Below, piece by piece: positions 39,681 through 57,592 of a DNA stretch of 64,000 bases. Under the pieces are notes generated by a model. The model saw only the letters and a list, made by a program, of their open reading frames with translations. It did not search any database and was not told where the DNA came from. Origin of the DNA: Acidobacteriota bacterium (GTDB lineage: Bacteria > Acidobacteriota > Terriglobia > Terriglobales > Acidobacteriaceae); NCBI GenBank assembly GCA_016196065.1, contig JACPYL010000010.1:1364001-1428000 (forward strand), written 5' to 3'. Position 1 is the first letter of the stretch, and each line of letters starts with the position of its first letter. The position numbers and the translations under genes are program-made.

Positions 39681-40580
39681 TTGACCGCGGTGAACTCTAA
39701 CCCCAAGTGGAACGGGCAGTTCTCGTGTTTTGATCTGGTCGCCAGAACTGGTGATCAGCCCCGTGTTGTGGTTCGAATCGGGGACATTGAGATCGGTGGC
39801 GACAACGAATTTGTCGTCATGGCCGGCCCGTGCGCAGTCGAATCCGAACGCCAGATTCTGGAGACAGCGGAGTTCGTTGCCGCAGCAGGGGCTCGCATTC
39901 TTCGTGGAGGCGCCTACAAGCCCCGGTCCTCCCCCTATTCCTTTCAGGGCATGGGAGTGGAAGGCCTGAAAATTCTGCGCAAGGCCCGGGAATACACCGG
40001 CCTGGCCATTGTCACGGAGGTCATGACCGAGACGGACGTGGATGTGATCGCAGAATACGCCGACGTCATGCAAGTCGGGACCCGGAGCATGGAGAACTAT
40101 GCGTTGCTGGAGGCGCTCGGGCGATGCGGCCGGCCGGTCCTTCTGAAGCGCGGGATGAGCGCGACCCTCGAAGATTTCATGCGGTCGGCGCAAGTCATCG
40201 CGATGAACGGCAATCCCAACATCATTTTGTGCGAGCGCGGTATTCGGACCTTTGAGACTGCGACACGAAACACGCTGGACATTGCCGCTGTGCCGGTACT
40301 GCAAACCGTTTCCAATCTGCCGGTGATCGTGGACCCCAGCCATGCCGCGGGGGTGCGATGCCTGGTTCCGATTCTGGCGCGCGCGGCCGTGGCCGTTGAG
40401 GCCGATGGAATGATTGTCGAGGTGCATCCCACGCCTGAGCGAGCATGGAGCGACGGCGATCAGTCACTGAACTTCCCCGAATTCCGCAACATGATGGATG
40501 ACCTGCAACCTTACCTCGCCATCCGGAGAGACATTGTTCGCCCTGGCCCACAATTATTAGAAGCGCGGGGGGCAGACTAG
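39681..40580 (+). CDS. 3-deoxy-7-phosphoheptulonate synthase (paralogue 1, no regulatory domain)
   Basis: DAHP synthase of the AroF/KDO8PS-like class, 299 residues, joining phosphoenolpyruvate and erythrose-4-phosphate. The annotated start is TTG at 39681 (GTG at 39690 is an alternative); neither has a good ribosome site. Core motifs are present: [92 protein letters not shown] and [12 protein letters not shown]. The N-terminal ferredoxin-like/ACT-type regulatory domain of the paralogue at 54384-55415 is absent, replaced by ~35 residues. It heads an operon of secreted haem and propeller proteins, an odd setting for a shikimate enzyme. A GTGACC/GGTCAC repeat lies ~40 bp upstream. Confidence 0.9.
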
Positions 40581-52127: not shown

Positions 52128-54134
52128 TCAGACTCCGGCGCCGACACGAGCGGCGATCGTTTCATTTTCATGCGACGTGGGGGAGTCCACTGTGAAATAG
52201 AAGGTCGCTCCCTTGTAGAGTTGAGCCTCGGCCCAAATCCGGCCTCCGTGCTTTTTGATAATCCGCTGGGCGGTCGCAAGGCCTACACCGGTGCCTTCAA
52301 ATTCTTCGGAACGGTGCAGTCGTTGGAAAACCCCAAAAAGCTTGTCGTAGTACGTCATGTCGAATCCCATGCCGTTGTCGCGAACGAAGATGACCGTTTC
52401 ACCGCTGATTTCGCTTGCGCCCACTTCGACCACTGCCGGGTGTCGCGGGCGCGAATACTTGAGCGCATTCGACAGCAGGTTTTGAAAAACCAGTTGTATG
52501 AGGGGTTCGTCACACTCCAATTGCGGAAGAGGCGCGATTTTCCATTCGACTTCGCGGCCTTCCCATTCGGGCTTGAGCAACGCTACGATCTCTCCGACAA
52601 TCCTATTGAGATCCACTTTACGGACGTCGATGCACTGCCTCCCGACTCGAGCCAGACTCAGCAACTCATCGATCAATATCCCCATCTTCTGAGTCCCTTC
52701 CTGAATTCGATTGAGGTAGTGCCGGACCTGAACATCGAGTGAAGGGCCAAACTCCTCCACCAAGATTCCGGAGAAACCCGCGATATGGCGCAGGGGTGCC
52801 CGAAGATCATGAGAGACGGAATACGTGAAAGATTCCAGTTCCTGGTTGGCCGCCTCCAATTGGGCGGTGCGTTGCTGGACGCGTAGCTCGAGGTTGCGAT
52901 TCAACTGCTGGATCTCACGTTCGGCGAGTTTTCGCTTTGTGATGTCGCGGAAGGCGATGACTCCGCCGTGCCGGACTCCCTGCTCATCGAGCAAGGGCCA
53001 GGCATTGCCCTCGATCCATACGCCGCCGGACACGGCTGGGTTGAGCAGATACATTTCTGCGCTGCTTGCTTCTCCGTGTACGGCGCGCACGAGGGGATTG
53101 TCCCTTTCAGGGAAAGGCGTCACCTGGTCCGGCTTGAACACGTGGTAGTGTTCCGCCCATTCCTGCATTGGAATCTTCGTGGGCCCCATGCCCACAATTG
53201 CGTTCGCTGCAGGATTCCAGAGTACAAAGTCTCCATTTTCATCGGCCGCAACCAGACCTTCGCCAATGTTGTCGAGCACGGACCGCAATAGGGTCGTTTG
53301 AGCCTGCAACGCGGTCCGTGACAGCCGCAACTCCTCCGCCTGTGCTGCCAATTTCTCTTCTGTCTGTTTGCGCTCCGTGATATCCGTACGGATGGCAACA
53401 TACTGCCGTACGTCTCCATCTTCGTTGAACAACGGAACGATGGTGGAATCGAGCCAGTACATCGAGCCATCTCGGGCGCGGTTCTTGATCTCGCCGTGCC
53501 AAACCCTGCCGTTGGCGACAGTGCGGTATAGGCCCGTGAAGAATTCTCTTGAGTGAAATCTGGAGTTCAGAATGCGATGGTTCTGGCCAACTAGTTCCGC
53601 TCTGGAATATTTGCTGATCGCGCAGAATTTGTCGTTGACGTAGGTAATCGTGCCATCAACATCGGTTATCGCCACGAAGGCGTGCTGGTCCATGGCGAAT
53701 TGTTGATCGGCCAGATCTTTCAGCGCTCTGCTGTTCTTGTCGAGGTCGGCAATGAATTCTGGAACGACTGAAATGAGGAGTGCAACTGTGATGGCCGACG
53801 CGATGGCTGTAATCGCATTCATCACGCCGGCGAGGATGTAGTTCGCGTGCCAGACGTTCCAAACTTCCATCCAATGTGAGGTTCCGCAGGCCAGAATGAA
53901 GATCGCGAACATCCACGTTAACCGGTTCGACAGCAACCGGCGGTTCTTGCGGATCAAGAAGATCAGGGTGAGCGGGATGCAGTAATAAGACAGCGCGATC
54001 ACGCTGTTGGAAATCACATTCAGCCACAGAGTCGTCGGATCCCAGAGATAGCAATATCCGTGGGGCATGAAGTCCGGGAGCCGGAAGGAAATGTTCACCA
54101 CGGCCGACAGATCGGAAGCAGATTGAGCGATCAT
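52128..54134 (-). CDS. PAS histidine kinase with ethylene-receptor-like membrane domain
   Basis: A membrane kinase of 668 residues. The first ~135 residues contain three helices that align without gap to the ethylene-binding domain of plant ETR1 and cyanobacterial Etr1: NVISNSVIALSYYCIPLTLIF (helix 1), FAIFILACGTSHWMEVWNVW (helix 2) and VMNAITAIASAITVALLISVVP (helix 3). The copper ligands Cys83 and His87 are present and Tyr50 matches ETR1 Tyr32, but the position of ETR1 Asp25 is Asn43. Two PAS domains (~145-258, ~285-405), a HisKA domain (SVSHDLRAPLRH) and an ATPase domain (NALKYSR, VGLATAQRIIKKHGG) follow. It heads a four-gene phosphorelay operon. Confidence 0.92.
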   Translation of the reverse strand: MIAQSASDLSAVVNISFRLPDFMPHGYCYLWDPTTLWLNVISNSVIALSYYCIPLTLIFLIRKNRRLLSNRLTWMFAIFILACGTSHWMEVWNVWHANYILAGVMNAITAIASAITVALLISVVPEFIADLDKNSRALKDLADQQFAMDQHAFVAITDVDGTITYVNDKFCAISKYSRAELVGQNHRILNSRFHSREFFTGLYRTVANGRVWHGEIKNRARDGSMYWLDSTIVPLFNEDGDVRQYVAIRTDITERKQTEEKLAAQAEELRLSRTALQAQTTLLRSVLDNIGEGLVAADENGDFVLWNPAANAIVGMGPTKIPMQEWAEHYHVFKPDQVTPFPERDNPLVRAVHGEASSAEMYLLNPAVSGGVWIEGNAWPLLDEQGVRHGGVIAFRDITKRKLAEREIQQLNRNLELRVQQRTAQLEAANQELESFTYSVSHDLRAPLRHIAGFSGILVEEFGPSLDVQVRHYLNRIQEGTQKMGILIDELLSLARVGRQCIDVRKVDLNRIVGEIVALLKPEWEGREVEWKIAPLPQLECDEPLIQLVFQNLLSNALKYSRPRHPAVVEVGASEISGETVIFVRDNGMGFDMTYYDKLFGVFQRLHRSEEFEGTGVGLATAQRIIKKHGGRIWAEAQLYKGATFYFTVDSPTSHENETIAARVGAGV

Positions 54135-54383
54135 GCGCGATCACAATGGCGACACGGGAGCACACGTTCACCCCGTCCATACCATCGTCAGTGCGGCGGG
54201 AAACTTCAGGAGAGAAAAACGATGTCGGCGCTGTGAAGCAGGGAAGAAACTGCACCGGAAGGGATTGCCCCTTGGGGGAGGCCTCCGGTAGTGGTCTGCA
54301 GCAGTGATCAACTGCCGGCCTTGGATCTGCGACGGGGCCGCCCGTCGCAGCATGCTAGAGCCTCAGGCAAGCGGTGGCGTCAA

Positions 54384-55415
54384 CTACGCGACCGCTTCGG
54401 ATTTTCTGACTGCAAGGGGACGCAGCGGGGCGTGCAATCCACGCATCACCTTCTCGAATTGCGCCAGGTCCAGCGACTGCGGTCCATCGGAAAGTGCGCG
54501 TTCCGGACAGGGATGCACTTCGACGATGATGCCGTCGGCGCCCACCGCGAGCGATGCTCGTGAAACGGGGCCGATCAGGCTCTGTTTGCCCGTTCCATGC
54601 GAAGGATCGGCGACCACCGGCAGGTGGGTCAGTTCTTTCGCCAGTGCGAGAGATCCAAGATCAATCGTGTTGCGGGTTCCCGTCTCGAAGGTCTTGATCC
54701 CGCGCTCGCAAAGCACCACCTGCTGATTTCCGCCGGAAAGCAGGTACTCCGCCGCCAGCAGCCATTCCTTCACGCTGGCCGAAGGACCTCTCTTCAGCAG
54801 TACAGGTTTGTTGGCGAGGGCCAACCGGCGCAGCAAAGCGTAATTCTGCATGTTGCGTGCGCCGACCTGCAGCATGTCGGCATATTCGCAGATCAGGTCC
54901 ACGTCCTCGGTACCCATCACTTCGGTGACGACCGGCAGTCCAGTTTGCTCGCGCGCTTCGCGGAGAATTTTGAGCGCCTCGATCCCCAACCCTTGAAACT
55001 CATAGGGCGAAGTGCGCGGTTTGTAGGCTCCGCCGCGCAGCATGTTGGCGCCGGCCTTCTTCACGCCATGAGCAGTTTCCAGCAGTTGTTCCCGGGATTC
55101 GACCGAGCACGGTCCAGCGATTACCACCACTTCCTCGCCGCCGATCTTGATCCCGCCCACATCCACGATGGATGAGGTCGGTCGAGTTTGCCGGCTTACC
55201 AACTTGAATGGCTGAGCGATGGCGACGACGTTATCGACACCCGGGGCGACCGACAGCGCTTCAATCTCGTGCCGGCGCCCTCCGCTACCGACGGCAGCCA
55301 CGATCGTGCGTTCCGTTCCGCGGGTAACGTGAGGTGTGAATCCCGCTTCCCGGATTCGCTGGATGATGTGTTCGATCTGCTCAGGACTGGCGCTGTCGGA
55401 CATGTTGACGATCAT
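54384..55415 (-). CDS. aroF: 3-deoxy-7-phosphoheptulonate synthase with N-terminal regulatory domain
   Basis: DAHP synthase of 343 residues, first enzyme of the shikimate pathway. The ATG at 55415 ([20 protein letters not shown]) gives the standard length; the open frame above it runs through the terminator. Residues 1-70 are the ferredoxin-like regulatory domain ([32 protein letters not shown]). The catalytic barrel follows with [91 protein letters not shown] and [12 protein letters not shown]. Just upstream is an aromatic-rich leader peptide with an intrinsic terminator, so expression is probably attenuated by Phe/Tyr/Trp supply. A second paralogue lies at 39681. Confidence 0.97.
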
Positions 55416-55440
55416 GGGAGGTCCTTTCGTAGTTGAATCC

Positions 55441-55476
55441 AAAAATAAAAACGCCGCGATCCTTGGATCGCGGCGT
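55441..55476 (-). terminator. Attenuator terminator in the aroF leader
   Basis: On the - strand a perfect 12-bp stem (ACGCCGCGATCC / GGATCGCGGCGT, 55451-55476) is followed by TTTTATTTTT (55450-55441). It lies between the leader peptide's stop and the aroF ATG, only 26 bp before the latter, so it must be read through for aroF to be made. The 5' arm CGCCGCG can also pair with CGCGGCG in leader codons 17-19 (55533-55539), a possible antiterminator. Confidence 0.9.
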
Positions 55477-55499
55477 CGGTGCAAAATCTTGAGCTGTCT

Positions 55500-55589
55500 C
55501 TATTTTCCGGACTCGCTCCAGACGGCAACCTCCGCCGCGTACCTAAACCAGTAGCGGCTAAATCGGCTGGAGGCGCTAAATCGAGTCAT
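55500..55589 (-). CDS. Aromatic leader peptide of aroF
   Basis: A 29-codon frame (ATG 55589, TAG 55500) behind GAAGGAA. Its middle reads RFSRYWFRYAAEVAVW. Phe is at positions 4, 10 and 15, Tyr at 13 and 17, Trp at 14 and 24: seven aromatic residues of 29, with four in the run YWFRY. Codons 17-19 can pair with the 5' arm of the terminator downstream, and codons 6-7 (GCCTCC) can pair with GGAGGT just after, which would give the pause and antitermination structures of classic attenuators. Stalling for lack of any of the three aromatic amino acids would favour aroF transcription. The leader lies 43 bp after the Flp pilin gene. Translation is inferred from ribosome site and context. Confidence 0.8.
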   Translation of the reverse strand: MTRFSASSRFSRYWFRYAAEVAVWSESGK

Positions 55590-55632
55590 CACGATTCCTT
55601 CGAGAAATGTCATTGCTGCACTAAAACCGGCT

Positions 55633-55800
55633 CTACTGGCTCAAAGAGCTGGCAACGCTGGAAAACGCGTTGTTTGCATTGCCGCCGATCAGACGTACTG
55701 TACCGATCACCAATACCAGGATCACCGCCAGCATGACTGCGTATTCGGCAATGTCCTGCCCCTGCTCGTCCGACCACAAGTTGCGGCAAATCTGAAGCAT
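55633..55800 (-). CDS. flp: Flp/Fap-type IVb pilin
   Basis: A 55-residue prepilin from the ATG at 55800, which follows GGAGG; the open frame upstream crosses the promoter. The class III leader is MLQICRNLWSDEQG, cut after Gly, followed by QDIAEYAVMLAVILVLVIGTV with Glu at +5 and Tyr at +6, the Flp signature. The C-terminus is Gly/Asn/Ser rich. The Tad assembly genes are not in the window, so this is a solitary pilin gene. A strong promoter precedes it, and no terminator lies between it and the aroF leader. Confidence 0.92.
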   Translation of the reverse strand: MLQICRNLWSDEQGQDIAEYAVMLAVILVLVIGTVRLIGGNANNAFSSVASSLSQ

Positions 55801-55854
55801 TCCATCCTCCGAGCCGTCGTTTTGAAAGCGTTCCCAAAACGAAACTAGGGAACA

Positions 55855-55883
55855 ATAATGCCGACTCCAATCGTGATTGTCAA
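55855..55883 (-). promoter_or_regulatory. Sigma-70 promoter of the flp pilin gene
   Basis: On the - strand a consensus TTGACA is followed after exactly 17 bp by CATTAT (4 of 6). The start would be near 55848, giving a ~48-nt leader. A CGTTTTG/CAAAACG inverted repeat (55818-55841) lies just downstream and could be an operator. Confidence 0.65.
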
Positions 55884-55944
55884 TCCACCTGTACGATGGA
55901 TTTTTCACAGGTTTACGAGGCGCCAAGTAGAATCAAAAGAGTCC

Positions 55945-56880
55945 ATGCCTGTCGCTTTGGAATTCGAAGCAATTACCAAGGAATACCGCTCGTGGCCGCG
56001 AGGAAAACGGGTTCAGGCGCTGCAAGAGTTTTCTCTTTCTGTGCAACAGGGAGAGATTTTTGGTTTTCTCGGACCGAATGGCGCGGGAAAAAGCACCGCC
56101 ATCCACCTCGCCATGGGATTCATGCAGCCTTCCTCTGGTAAGGGCCAAATGCTGGGGAAGCCCTTTGGAGACGCTGGGACCCGCCGCCGCGTCGGATTTC
56201 TAGCTGAAAATGTCGCGCTTTACCATCGCCAGGCCGAGGCGGCGATCCGATTCTACGGTGGCCTGAACGGAATGCATGGCGTGTCACTTGCCAGTGCCGC
56301 GCGCGCCGCCCTGGTATCCGTTGACCTACAGTCGGAATCCCGACGCAATCTGGCGCAGTTTTCGCGTGGAATGGTGCAGCGGGTGGGTCTGGCCCAGGCA
56401 CTCGTAAGTGACCCAGAGTTACTTATTCTCGATGAACCGACCTCGGCGCTCGATCCGGCGGCACGCGTCGCGGTTCGCGAATTATTGCTTCGATCACGAA
56501 GTCAGGGGAAAACGATCTTCCTCAGCTCGCATCTGCTTTCGGAAGTGGAACTCGTCTGTGACCGCGTGGCGATACTGAGCCGCGGCCAAGTAGTTCGAAC
56601 GGGTTCGCTCAGTTCGATGCTCGAAGCCAGCGACCAGGTTGAGATCGTTGCGCAAGGCGAAGCCCTGCGCCAGTTCGACCACGCCATCGTCGAAGGTACC
56701 CGGGTCCGGTTCACGGTTCCTAAGAGCGCACAGCGAAATTCTATTGAAAGAGTCTGGGCTGCGGGCGGGGAAGTGGTCAGCGTGAATCCCGCGCGGCGTT
56801 CCCTGGAGGAACTTTTTCTCGAACTGACCGGCCCGGAACCAAATGGCACTGCCCGAAAGCAAGCGGGAGAACTGAACTGA
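55945..56880 (+). CDS. ABC transporter ATP-binding protein
   Basis: Export-type ATPase of 311 residues. The ATG at 55945 (MPVALEFEAITKEYRSWPRG) starts the conserved domain; the earlier open frame lies over the flp promoter. Walker [10 protein letters not shown], signature FSRGMVQRVGLAQAL, Walker [15 protein letters not shown] and switch His (LSSHLLSEVE) are intact, and the small C-terminal domain is present. It forms a pair with the permease gene one base downstream. The cargo is unknown. Confidence 0.93.
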   Translation: MPVALEFEAITKEYRSWPRGKRVQALQEFSLSVQQGEIFGFLGPNGAGKSTAIHLAMGFMQPSSGKGQMLGKPFGDAGTRRRVGFLAENVALYHRQAEAAIRFYGGLNGMHGVSLASAARAALVSVDLQSESRRNLAQFSRGMVQRVGLAQALVSDPELLILDEPTSALDPAARVAVRELLLRSRSQGKTIFLSSHLLSEVELVCDRVAILSRGQVVRTGSLSSMLEASDQVEIVAQGEALRQFDHAIVEGTRVRFTVPKSAQRNSIERVWAAGGEVVSVNPARRSLEELFLELTGPEPNGTARKQAGELN

Positions 56881-56881
56881 G

Positions 56882-57592
56882 ATGAGACCGGTCTTCTTGA
56901 TCGCACAGAACTTCGCACGCGAACAACGCTGGCCACTCTTCTTCCTGCTTCTCTGGGTGCTCGGTTGGGCATTGTTTGGAGTTCTGGCTGATCCGCGCTC
57001 GGGACCGGATGACGCGCTACTGATTTTCCGTCAGCTTGCGGTGTATTCGGTCACGTTCGGAGTGTTCTTTGGCAGTTCCGCGATCCAGGCCGACCAGAGG
57101 TCCCGTCGCATCCTTGCCGTGCTGTCCAAAGGGATCTCGCGCCGCCAATATGTGTTCGGCCTGCTCCTGGGTATCGCCCTGGTGCTGGGCGTGTTTTGCC
57201 TGTGTATGGGATTTACCGCCAGCTGGCTGCTGGGCCGTTACGGTTTCAGCCTAGGTGCGATGTGGTTCGGGGTACTCGCGCTTTGGACAGCGTGCCTGCT
57301 GACCGCATCCTTAACGCTGTCTCTTGCGGCCTTCATGCCTCCCATGTTTGCTGCGATCGGGGCGGGCACAATCGCGGGAATTCCCGCACTCCTCGCAATG
57401 CGCGGAGACGTGTTTTCAAAGTATGTGATTCCGGTGCATGGATTGCTGGAGCCGTCGATCCGGGCGGACTTTACCTATACATGGCAAGCAAGCATCGGCA
57501 TGATTGCTTTCGGATGGGTGGAAACCGCAGCCTTCTGGTTTGTGGCTGCGTGGATTTTCTCGCGACGCGATCTGTCGGTGGCGGTGGAGTAG
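56882..57592 (+). CDS. ABC transporter permease
   Basis: A 236-residue membrane protein with about six helices (WPLFFLLLWVLGWALFGVL, LAVYSVTFGVFFGSSAI, YVFGLLLGIALVLGVFCLCMGF, AMWFGVLALWTACLLTASL, FAAIGAGTIAGIPALLAM, ASIGMIAFGWVETAAFWFVA). The SKGISRRQYVFG loop fits ABC-2 permeases. It follows the ATPase gene by one base and converges on the nuo operon, ending 16 bp from nuoN. Confidence 0.85.
   Translation: MRPVFLIAQNFAREQRWPLFFLLLWVLGWALFGVLADPRSGPDDALLIFRQLAVYSVTFGVFFGSSAIQADQRSRRILAVLSKGISRRQYVFGLLLGIALVLGVFCLCMGFTASWLLGRYGFSLGAMWFGVLALWTACLLTASLTLSLAAFMPPMFAAIGAGTIAGIPALLAMRGDVFSKYVIPVHGLLEPSIRADFTYTWQASIGMIAFGWVETAAFWFVAAWIFSRRDLSVAVE

Follow-up and report, generated by a model that had tools for sequence, protein, structure and literature searches.

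A putative ribosome-mediated attenuator with an aromatic-rich leader before the DAHP synthase gene aroF in Acidobacteriota and other phyla

The aroF Locus

The DNA considered here, called the window throughout, is a stretch of 64,000 nucleotides from an Acidobacteriota bacterium (contig JACPYL010000010.1, positions 1,364,001 to 1,428,000). Its minus strand carries, in order, a 29-codon open reading frame (ORF) at 55589-55500, a hairpin of 12 bp followed by T-rich sequence (55477-55441), and aroF (54384..55415, with its ATG at 55415). The aroF gene encodes a DAHP synthase of the PRK08673/type Ibeta kind with an N-terminal ferredoxin-like regulatory domain. The product scores 475.6 bits against profile NF006421 (cut-off 335), contains the Pfam family DAHP_synth_1 and a ferredoxin-like domain, and has 1rzm as its closest solved structure (E 3.8e-102). 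The sequence AAAGGA (55422..55427, minus strand) offers aroF an SD-like site, and an SD-like 4-mer is found before 84 of 89 aroF genes.

Several neighbors help to place the locus. The gene immediately 3' of aroF (52128-54134, minus strand) encodes a histidine kinase whose N-terminal domain is ethylene-receptor-like (PF25487, E 5.6e-29) and which also carries PAS domains. On the other side, a small ORF at about 55633-55803 (minus strand) ends 44 nt 5' of the leader; it was named Flp-pilin-like by eye, and a Pfam search of its longer frame returned no family. This ORF is retained 5' of the leader in 17 aligned members of the window's genus. A second DAHP synthase core with 55% identity to aroF lies elsewhere in the window (39729-40511, plus strand), and the source genome has five DAHP synthase matches in all.

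The Leader Open Reading Frame

The leader ORF (ATG55589-TAG55500, i.e., 55500..55589 on the minus strand) reads MTRFSASSRFSRYWFRYAAEVAVWSESGK and contains the seven aromatic codons that a preliminary sequence-only reading of this DNA had reported, namely F4, F10, Y13, W14, F15, Y17, and W24. Additional in-frame starts occur 5' of the leader ATG (ATG 55613 and GTG 55592), and conservation in the alignment of the window's genus begins at ATG 55589. A codon comparison that used 15 of the 17 genus members found F4, F10, and F15 to be invariant in all 15, with Y13 kept in 12 and W14 in 13. Codons 10, 13, and 15 (F10, Y13, and F15) show synonymous changes, and the adjacent codons 16 and 17 vary freely. 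The excess of third-position differences that is typical of coding sequence is absent from the genus leader, where the differences per codon position number 666, 660, and 649. Across leaders more broadly, no sequence conservation is seen in the peptide beyond its aromatic content. From this pattern of change, constraint on the genus leader seems limited to the aromatic codons and the RNA pairing.

The way in which translation of the leader would begin appears to differ among lineages. The sequence-only reading gave the ORF its own ribosome site, GAAGGAA; this motif is present at 55601-55595 (minus strand) but is not conserved, given that an SD-like 4-mer precedes only 1 of 17 genus leaders, which is the window's own. 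Among 71 leaders outside the window's genus, an SD-like 4-mer is found in seven, and in 37 a -10-like hexamer starts 14 or 15 nt upstream of the leader ATG, from which promoter geometry would place the 5' end of the transcript no more than about 3 nt from that ATG. The scarcity of SD-like sites together with the frequency of the hexamer suggests that much of the class, the window's genus excepted, probably has a leaderless leader ORF. A leaderless start was rejected as a universal feature because no -10-like hexamer stands at the expected place in the window's genus, where the leader start showed no promoter. It was also rejected for the other phyla described below, where the same strict rule found the hexamer within 25 nt in only 3 of 24 leaders and an SD-like site in 8 of 24. 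A sigma-70-like site is found at 55883-55855, 5' of the pilin-like ORF, and in the window's genus aroF may possibly be reached by read-through from the pilin transcript.

Conservation Across the Class

A search for aroF orthologues gave matches in 61 genomes of relatives and 299 genomes of the class. Upstream DNA was collected for the 115 best-matching orthologues rather than for all matches, and one (L035) with too little upstream sequence was dropped to leave 114 regions. These were scanned for an ORF with at least four aromatic residues per eight codons and a terminator hairpin no more than 90 nt beyond it; a stricter rule called for at least five. Cluster and terminator occur together in 87 of the 114 regions by the looser rule (window included) and in 69 by the stricter one, as opposed to 6/570 and 1/570 dinucleotide shuffles put through the same scan. 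Reverse complements gave 0/114 at the stricter threshold. DAHP synthase paralogues yielded a single case in 20 by the looser rule (L161) and none by the stricter, and the second DAHP synthase in the window, near 39729, is without an aromatic leader upstream. When other residue groups were counted by the stricter rule, the 114 regions gave 29 for PGA, 20 for TSN, 16 for LVI, 4 for ICM, 2 for DEK, and 1 for HQN, compared with 69 for FYW. Clusters of common residues are also picked up by the scan, and not negligibly, yet the rare residues Phe, Tyr, and Trp rank first. The contrast between orthologous regions and shuffles supports the earlier proposal of an attenuator at a DAHP synthase gene. The sequence-only reading had named a hairpin kept without the ORF or its aromatic codons as the observation that would count against it; instead, both are kept in the genus, in the family, and in no fewer than eight of the class's family groups (f1, f3, f5, f6, f7, f8, f9, and f11).

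A curated set of 89 leaders was drawn from the 87 regions at the looser threshold by removing L072 and L076 after inspection by eye and adding L004, L014, L015, and L017, which score three of eight and were included since they align with relatives. Two further leader-like regions, L063 and L069, were left out. Examples from the class include MTRRFSRYYWFTCQVGG (L023), MRFSRFYFYGGWADH (L024), MYTAFANSHFYFSYWYWSYAPSR (L054), and MNARLANSYWWYRFTWHPSGWRGVFL (L099). Phe is found in all 89 curated leaders, Tyr and Trp in 82 each, and all three in 78, with Trp making up 5.8% of residues.

The remaining 25 of the 114 upstream regions stand outside the curated set, and some of them truly have no leader. 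A pheA ACT-like motif lies directly 5' of aroF in eight of these 25 (L028, L056, L059, L067, L081, L082, L102, and L109) versus 2 of the 89 with a leader. The greater frequency of the motif in regions outside the set suggests that the leader may be dispensable where aroF comes after pheA. The same arrangement was seen in three regions of the phylum sample without a curated leader (L116, L119, and L122). In the source genome itself, the region upstream of trpE has no aromatic leader with terminator. Upstream of pheA, a 67-codon ORF that overlaps the preceding gene scores four of eight (Phe/Tyr) and is followed by a terminator; this was taken as chance.

Distribution Beyond the Class

A scan of named records covered the best 80 of at least 593 stretches and gave 78 usable upstream regions, of which 15 reached the looser threshold. 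Ten of these 15 come from the 16 records that are named as Acidobacteriota or its subgroups, including Candidatus Acidiferrum typicum, Bryobacter sp., and Candidatus Sulfopaludibacter. Three others are Planctomycetota (Thermoguttaceae, Roseimaritima sediminicola, and Planctomycetaceae) and one is from Calditrichota; the remaining match, L213, is probably due to chance. The 28 usable loci from the phylum to which Roseimaritima belongs yielded 14 leaders, and the 23 from that of the Calditrichota record yielded 7, the starting one included. The 24 leaders outside Acidobacteriota hold all three aromatics in 16 cases, and the antiterminator is better than shuffles in 21.

Some leaders in these phyla are very rich in Tyr and Phe and sparse in Trp (e.g., MKSLKNTFYYYGYYYYFGGWCSDSQ), as in L284-L290 from the phylum of the Calditrichota record and L268 and L270-L273 from that of Roseimaritima. 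A sample of 28 loci from the window's phylum covered other classes, apart from three loci of the window's own class (L130, L131, and L141); terminator and cluster were found in L118, in L127 (doubtful), and in L130. A further locus from another class of the phylum, L139, has an aromatic-rich ORF end, FSPFVPSYYWYSWYWFSPRG, at about -271 of its DAHP synthase, with no terminator accepted by the scan.

Alternative RNA Structures

The hairpin between leader and gene has the form of an intrinsic terminator (55450..55477, minus strand), with a 12-bp stem of -22.9 kcal/mol, a T-rich tract at 55441..55451, and 25 nt from the last T to the aroF ATG, which confirms the arrangement proposed from sequence. 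Its 5' arm is referred to as segment 3 and its 3' arm as segment 4. Segment 2 (AGGTACGCGGCGGAGGTT, 55527..55544, minus strand) lies within the leader ORF and is the predicted antiterminator strand. As the sequence-only reading had pointed out, leader codons 17-19 can pair with the terminator 5' arm in a helix that extends across a 2x2 loop, here calculated at -21.7 kcal/mol. Segment 2 can also be drawn into a protector hairpin. The inner part of this hairpin is formed with segment 1 (CCGCTAC, 55551..55557, minus strand), which overlaps the Arg-Tyr codons. The outer helix is formed by codons 6-7 (GCCTCC, 55569..55574, minus strand) with GGAGGT, a pairing that was likewise foreseen and that covaries among 22 relatives.

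In nearly all leaders, sequence that lies where the aromatic cluster ends, or close to that point, is able to pair with the terminator 5' arm. The 2:3 pairing of a leader with its own terminator is stronger than its mean cross-lineage pairing in 71 of 89 cases (means -13.2 versus -10.3 kcal/mol; Wilcoxon p 3.9e-9), and in 87 of 89 it is stronger than the pairing formed by shuffles of the leader. The advantage of own over cross-lineage pairing indicates that leader and terminator change in concert from one lineage to the next. In a more distant group (27 leaders aligned out of 33 prepared), antiterminator cells are paired at 96% and terminator cells at 99%, and the hairpin counted there sits 5' of segment 2 without overlapping it.

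Within the window's family (22 of 25 prepared sequences aligned), changes on both sides are found at 7 of the 13 pairs of the protector hairpin, a result matched by 0 of 500 shuffles. The sequence-only reading had also named covariation in the antiterminator as something to look for. Across lineages its pairing does follow sequence change, but within the window's family it shows no more covariation than shuffles (167/500), and its columns there are nearly fixed. The antiterminator pairing across lineages and the covarying protector hairpin together support the idea that mutually exclusive structures can form.

Where a Stalled Ribosome Would Matter

The effect of ribosome position was modeled by placing each codon in turn in the A site and folding the RNA downstream of the ribosome as far as the loop of the terminator. 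The model is purely thermodynamic, and its choice of segment 2 as the best duplex works in its favor. For the 89 leaders, the modeled probability of 2:3 pairing, P(2:3), is 0.65 with the ribosome at aromatic codons, 0.41 at other codons, and 0.05 at the stop codon, and 85 leaders have the higher antiterminator score at aromatic codons. Codons at which a stall would free segment 2 are aromatic in 37% of cases (521/1391), versus 12% (101/839) for the remaining codons, a contrast that holds whether the footprint is set at 13, 16, or 19 nt. The position of the aromatic cluster shifts across leaders with segment 2 and not with the stop codon.

The window itself gives a P(2:3) of 0.7 at F10, 0.6 at Y13, 0.4 at W14, 0.2 at F15, and 0.0 at Y17, with 0.67 for naked RNA. 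By these values, stalls at F10 and Y13 are the best supported by the model for the window species, and the protector hairpin has little modeled effect. Codons of all three aromatic types reach a P(2:3) of at least 0.5 in only 53 of the 89 leaders.

Proposed Mechanism and Alternative Explanations

The evidence points to control of aroF by ribosome-mediated transcription attenuation of the trp type, a reading given a probability of about 0.87. We infer translation of the ORF, ribosome stalling, and the resulting change in read-through from the sequence. RNA polymerase would transcribe the leader while a ribosome translates the short aromatic-rich ORF. With charged Phe-, Tyr-, and Trp-tRNA in plentiful supply, the ribosome would pass the cluster and cover segment 2, allowing the terminator (3:4) to form and leaving aroF untranscribed. 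If any one of the charged tRNAs were scarce, the ribosome would stall within the cluster and leave segment 2 free to pair with segment 3 as the antiterminator, and aroF would be transcribed. Such an attenuator would very likely turn the pathway on when Phe, Tyr, and Trp run short. Provided that the attenuator is real, the codon content somewhat favors a role for all three amino acids.

One alternative accepts the attenuator and narrows its input to a single amino acid, most likely Phe, with the Tyr and Trp codons being incidental or auxiliary. This reading draws on the AroR leader of Corynebacterium, which contains Phe-Tyr-Phe and is reported to respond to Phe and not to Tyr (PMC11802643). It also draws on the standing of Phe as the commonest aromatic, found in every curated leader, on the invariance of F10 and F15 in all 15 genus members where Y13 and W14 vary, and on the limited number of leaders, noted above, in which all three types occur at favorable stall positions. 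Against it, Tyr and Trp are each found in 82 of 89 leaders even though they are rare residues, Trp at the frequency given earlier, and the aromatic mix persists while the surrounding sequence changes. On balance, sensing of one amino acid seems unlikely, if far from fanciful. The position of a short peptide rich in aromatics, Trp among them, ahead of a terminator also brings to mind nascent-peptide arrest of the TnaC-like kind, in which free aromatic amino acids would be sensed rather than tRNA charging. The leader peptides share only their aromatic content, however, and the cluster tracks segment 2 rather than the stop codon, which makes arrest of this kind quite improbable.

Other explanations dispense with the leader ORF altogether. 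The Flp-like pilin ORF that ends about 44 nt 5' of the leader in the genus, with a sigma-70-like site before it, could mean that the hairpin is the ordinary terminator of a small pilin gene accompanied by a chance ORF. This is contradicted by lineages with quite different upstream sequence that keep the leader-terminator pair, by the absence of the pair at DAHP synthase paralogues (0/20 at the stricter threshold), and by the conservation of aromatic codons, and there is little to recommend it. A terminator-bearing region before an amino acid gene might also be expected of a T-box or riboswitch. However, an Rfam search of window positions 54000-57000 (E up to 5) gave no match, and 15 related loci gave no cis-regulatory match at the gathering score and no known leader, T-box, or riboswitch. 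The chance of this explanation is close to nil. The Rfam families without a match here presumably include the Trp, Phe, and His leaders.

The preferred reading of a trp-type attenuator can be extended to a broader picture. An old family of DAHP synthase attenuators, retained widely across Acidobacteriota, Planctomycetota, and Calditrichota, would act as an OR gate on Phe, Tyr, and Trp tRNA charging and would be leaderless in much of Terriglobia. Taken with all of its parts, this picture has about even odds. The first enzyme of a branched pathway must answer to several end products. E. coli handles end-product control of the first aromatic-pathway step with a set of three isoenzymes together with repressor proteins. 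In the present case, one RNA element seems to monitor all three end products simultaneously at the first step of the pathway, which makes it a directly testable multi-input sensor.

Relation to Known Attenuators

The trp, phe, and his leaders of Proteobacteria are each usually taken to sense one amino acid. The present element resembles these operon attenuators in its leader codons, protector hairpin, antiterminator, and terminator; it differs in the gene controlled, in the number of amino acids apparently read, and in having no Rfam match. An attenuator at aroR-aroF of Corynebacterium glutamicum was reportedly described by Neshat in 2014. As far as the accessible text of two sources goes, this AroR leader stands before aroF, contains Phe-Tyr-Phe, and responds to Phe limitation and not to Tyr (PMC11802643, PMC4046766). 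The likeness lies in the pairing of a leader peptide and attenuation with DAHP synthase, the first gene of the aromatic pathway. Compared by description, the actinobacterial leader differs from the present one in that no Trp is mentioned in the accessible text.

A second relative is the uORFC-13-1 motif before aroF, a bioinformatic prediction that, in the accessible part of its source, is confined to Acholeplasma and environmental sequences (PMC8632094). It too has an upstream ORF with Phe codon(s) and a terminator 5' of aroF; by its description, as far as this is accessible, it is defined by a ribosome-binding site and at least one Phe and not, as here, by three aromatics. In Sinorhizobium meliloti, the trpL leader is described in the accessible part of the source as leaderless, with a transcript that begins at the leader ATG (PMC7298713). 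The resemblance to the present leaders is one of a leaderless leader ORF, which here is predicted only and not for the window's genus. Unlike the present leader, trpL senses Trp before trpE(G) and belongs to an alphaproteobacterium.

Surveys provide further context within their accessible portions. One of Actinobacteria from 2005 reported finding no structure conserved at genes for phenylalanine or tyrosine (PMC1262725), and another from 2010 assigned almost no function to attenuators in the phyla concerned here (PMC2965389). The accessible parts of PMC4833913 and PMC12508126 contain no comparable aroF leader. Among the matches listed from the openly licensed literature, none describes an aroF leader with three aromatics, nor an aroF leader in Acidobacteriota, Planctomycetota, or Calditrichota. 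The design had been put forward as undescribed. This does not hold for aroF attenuators in general, which are already known in Corynebacterium and Acholeplasma, but the version with all three aromatics in Acidobacteriota, Planctomycetota, and Calditrichota is apparently undescribed in the literature covered. Set beside these systems, the leaders described here would provide a clear example of amino acid attenuators beyond Proteobacteria, Actinobacteria, and Firmicutes.
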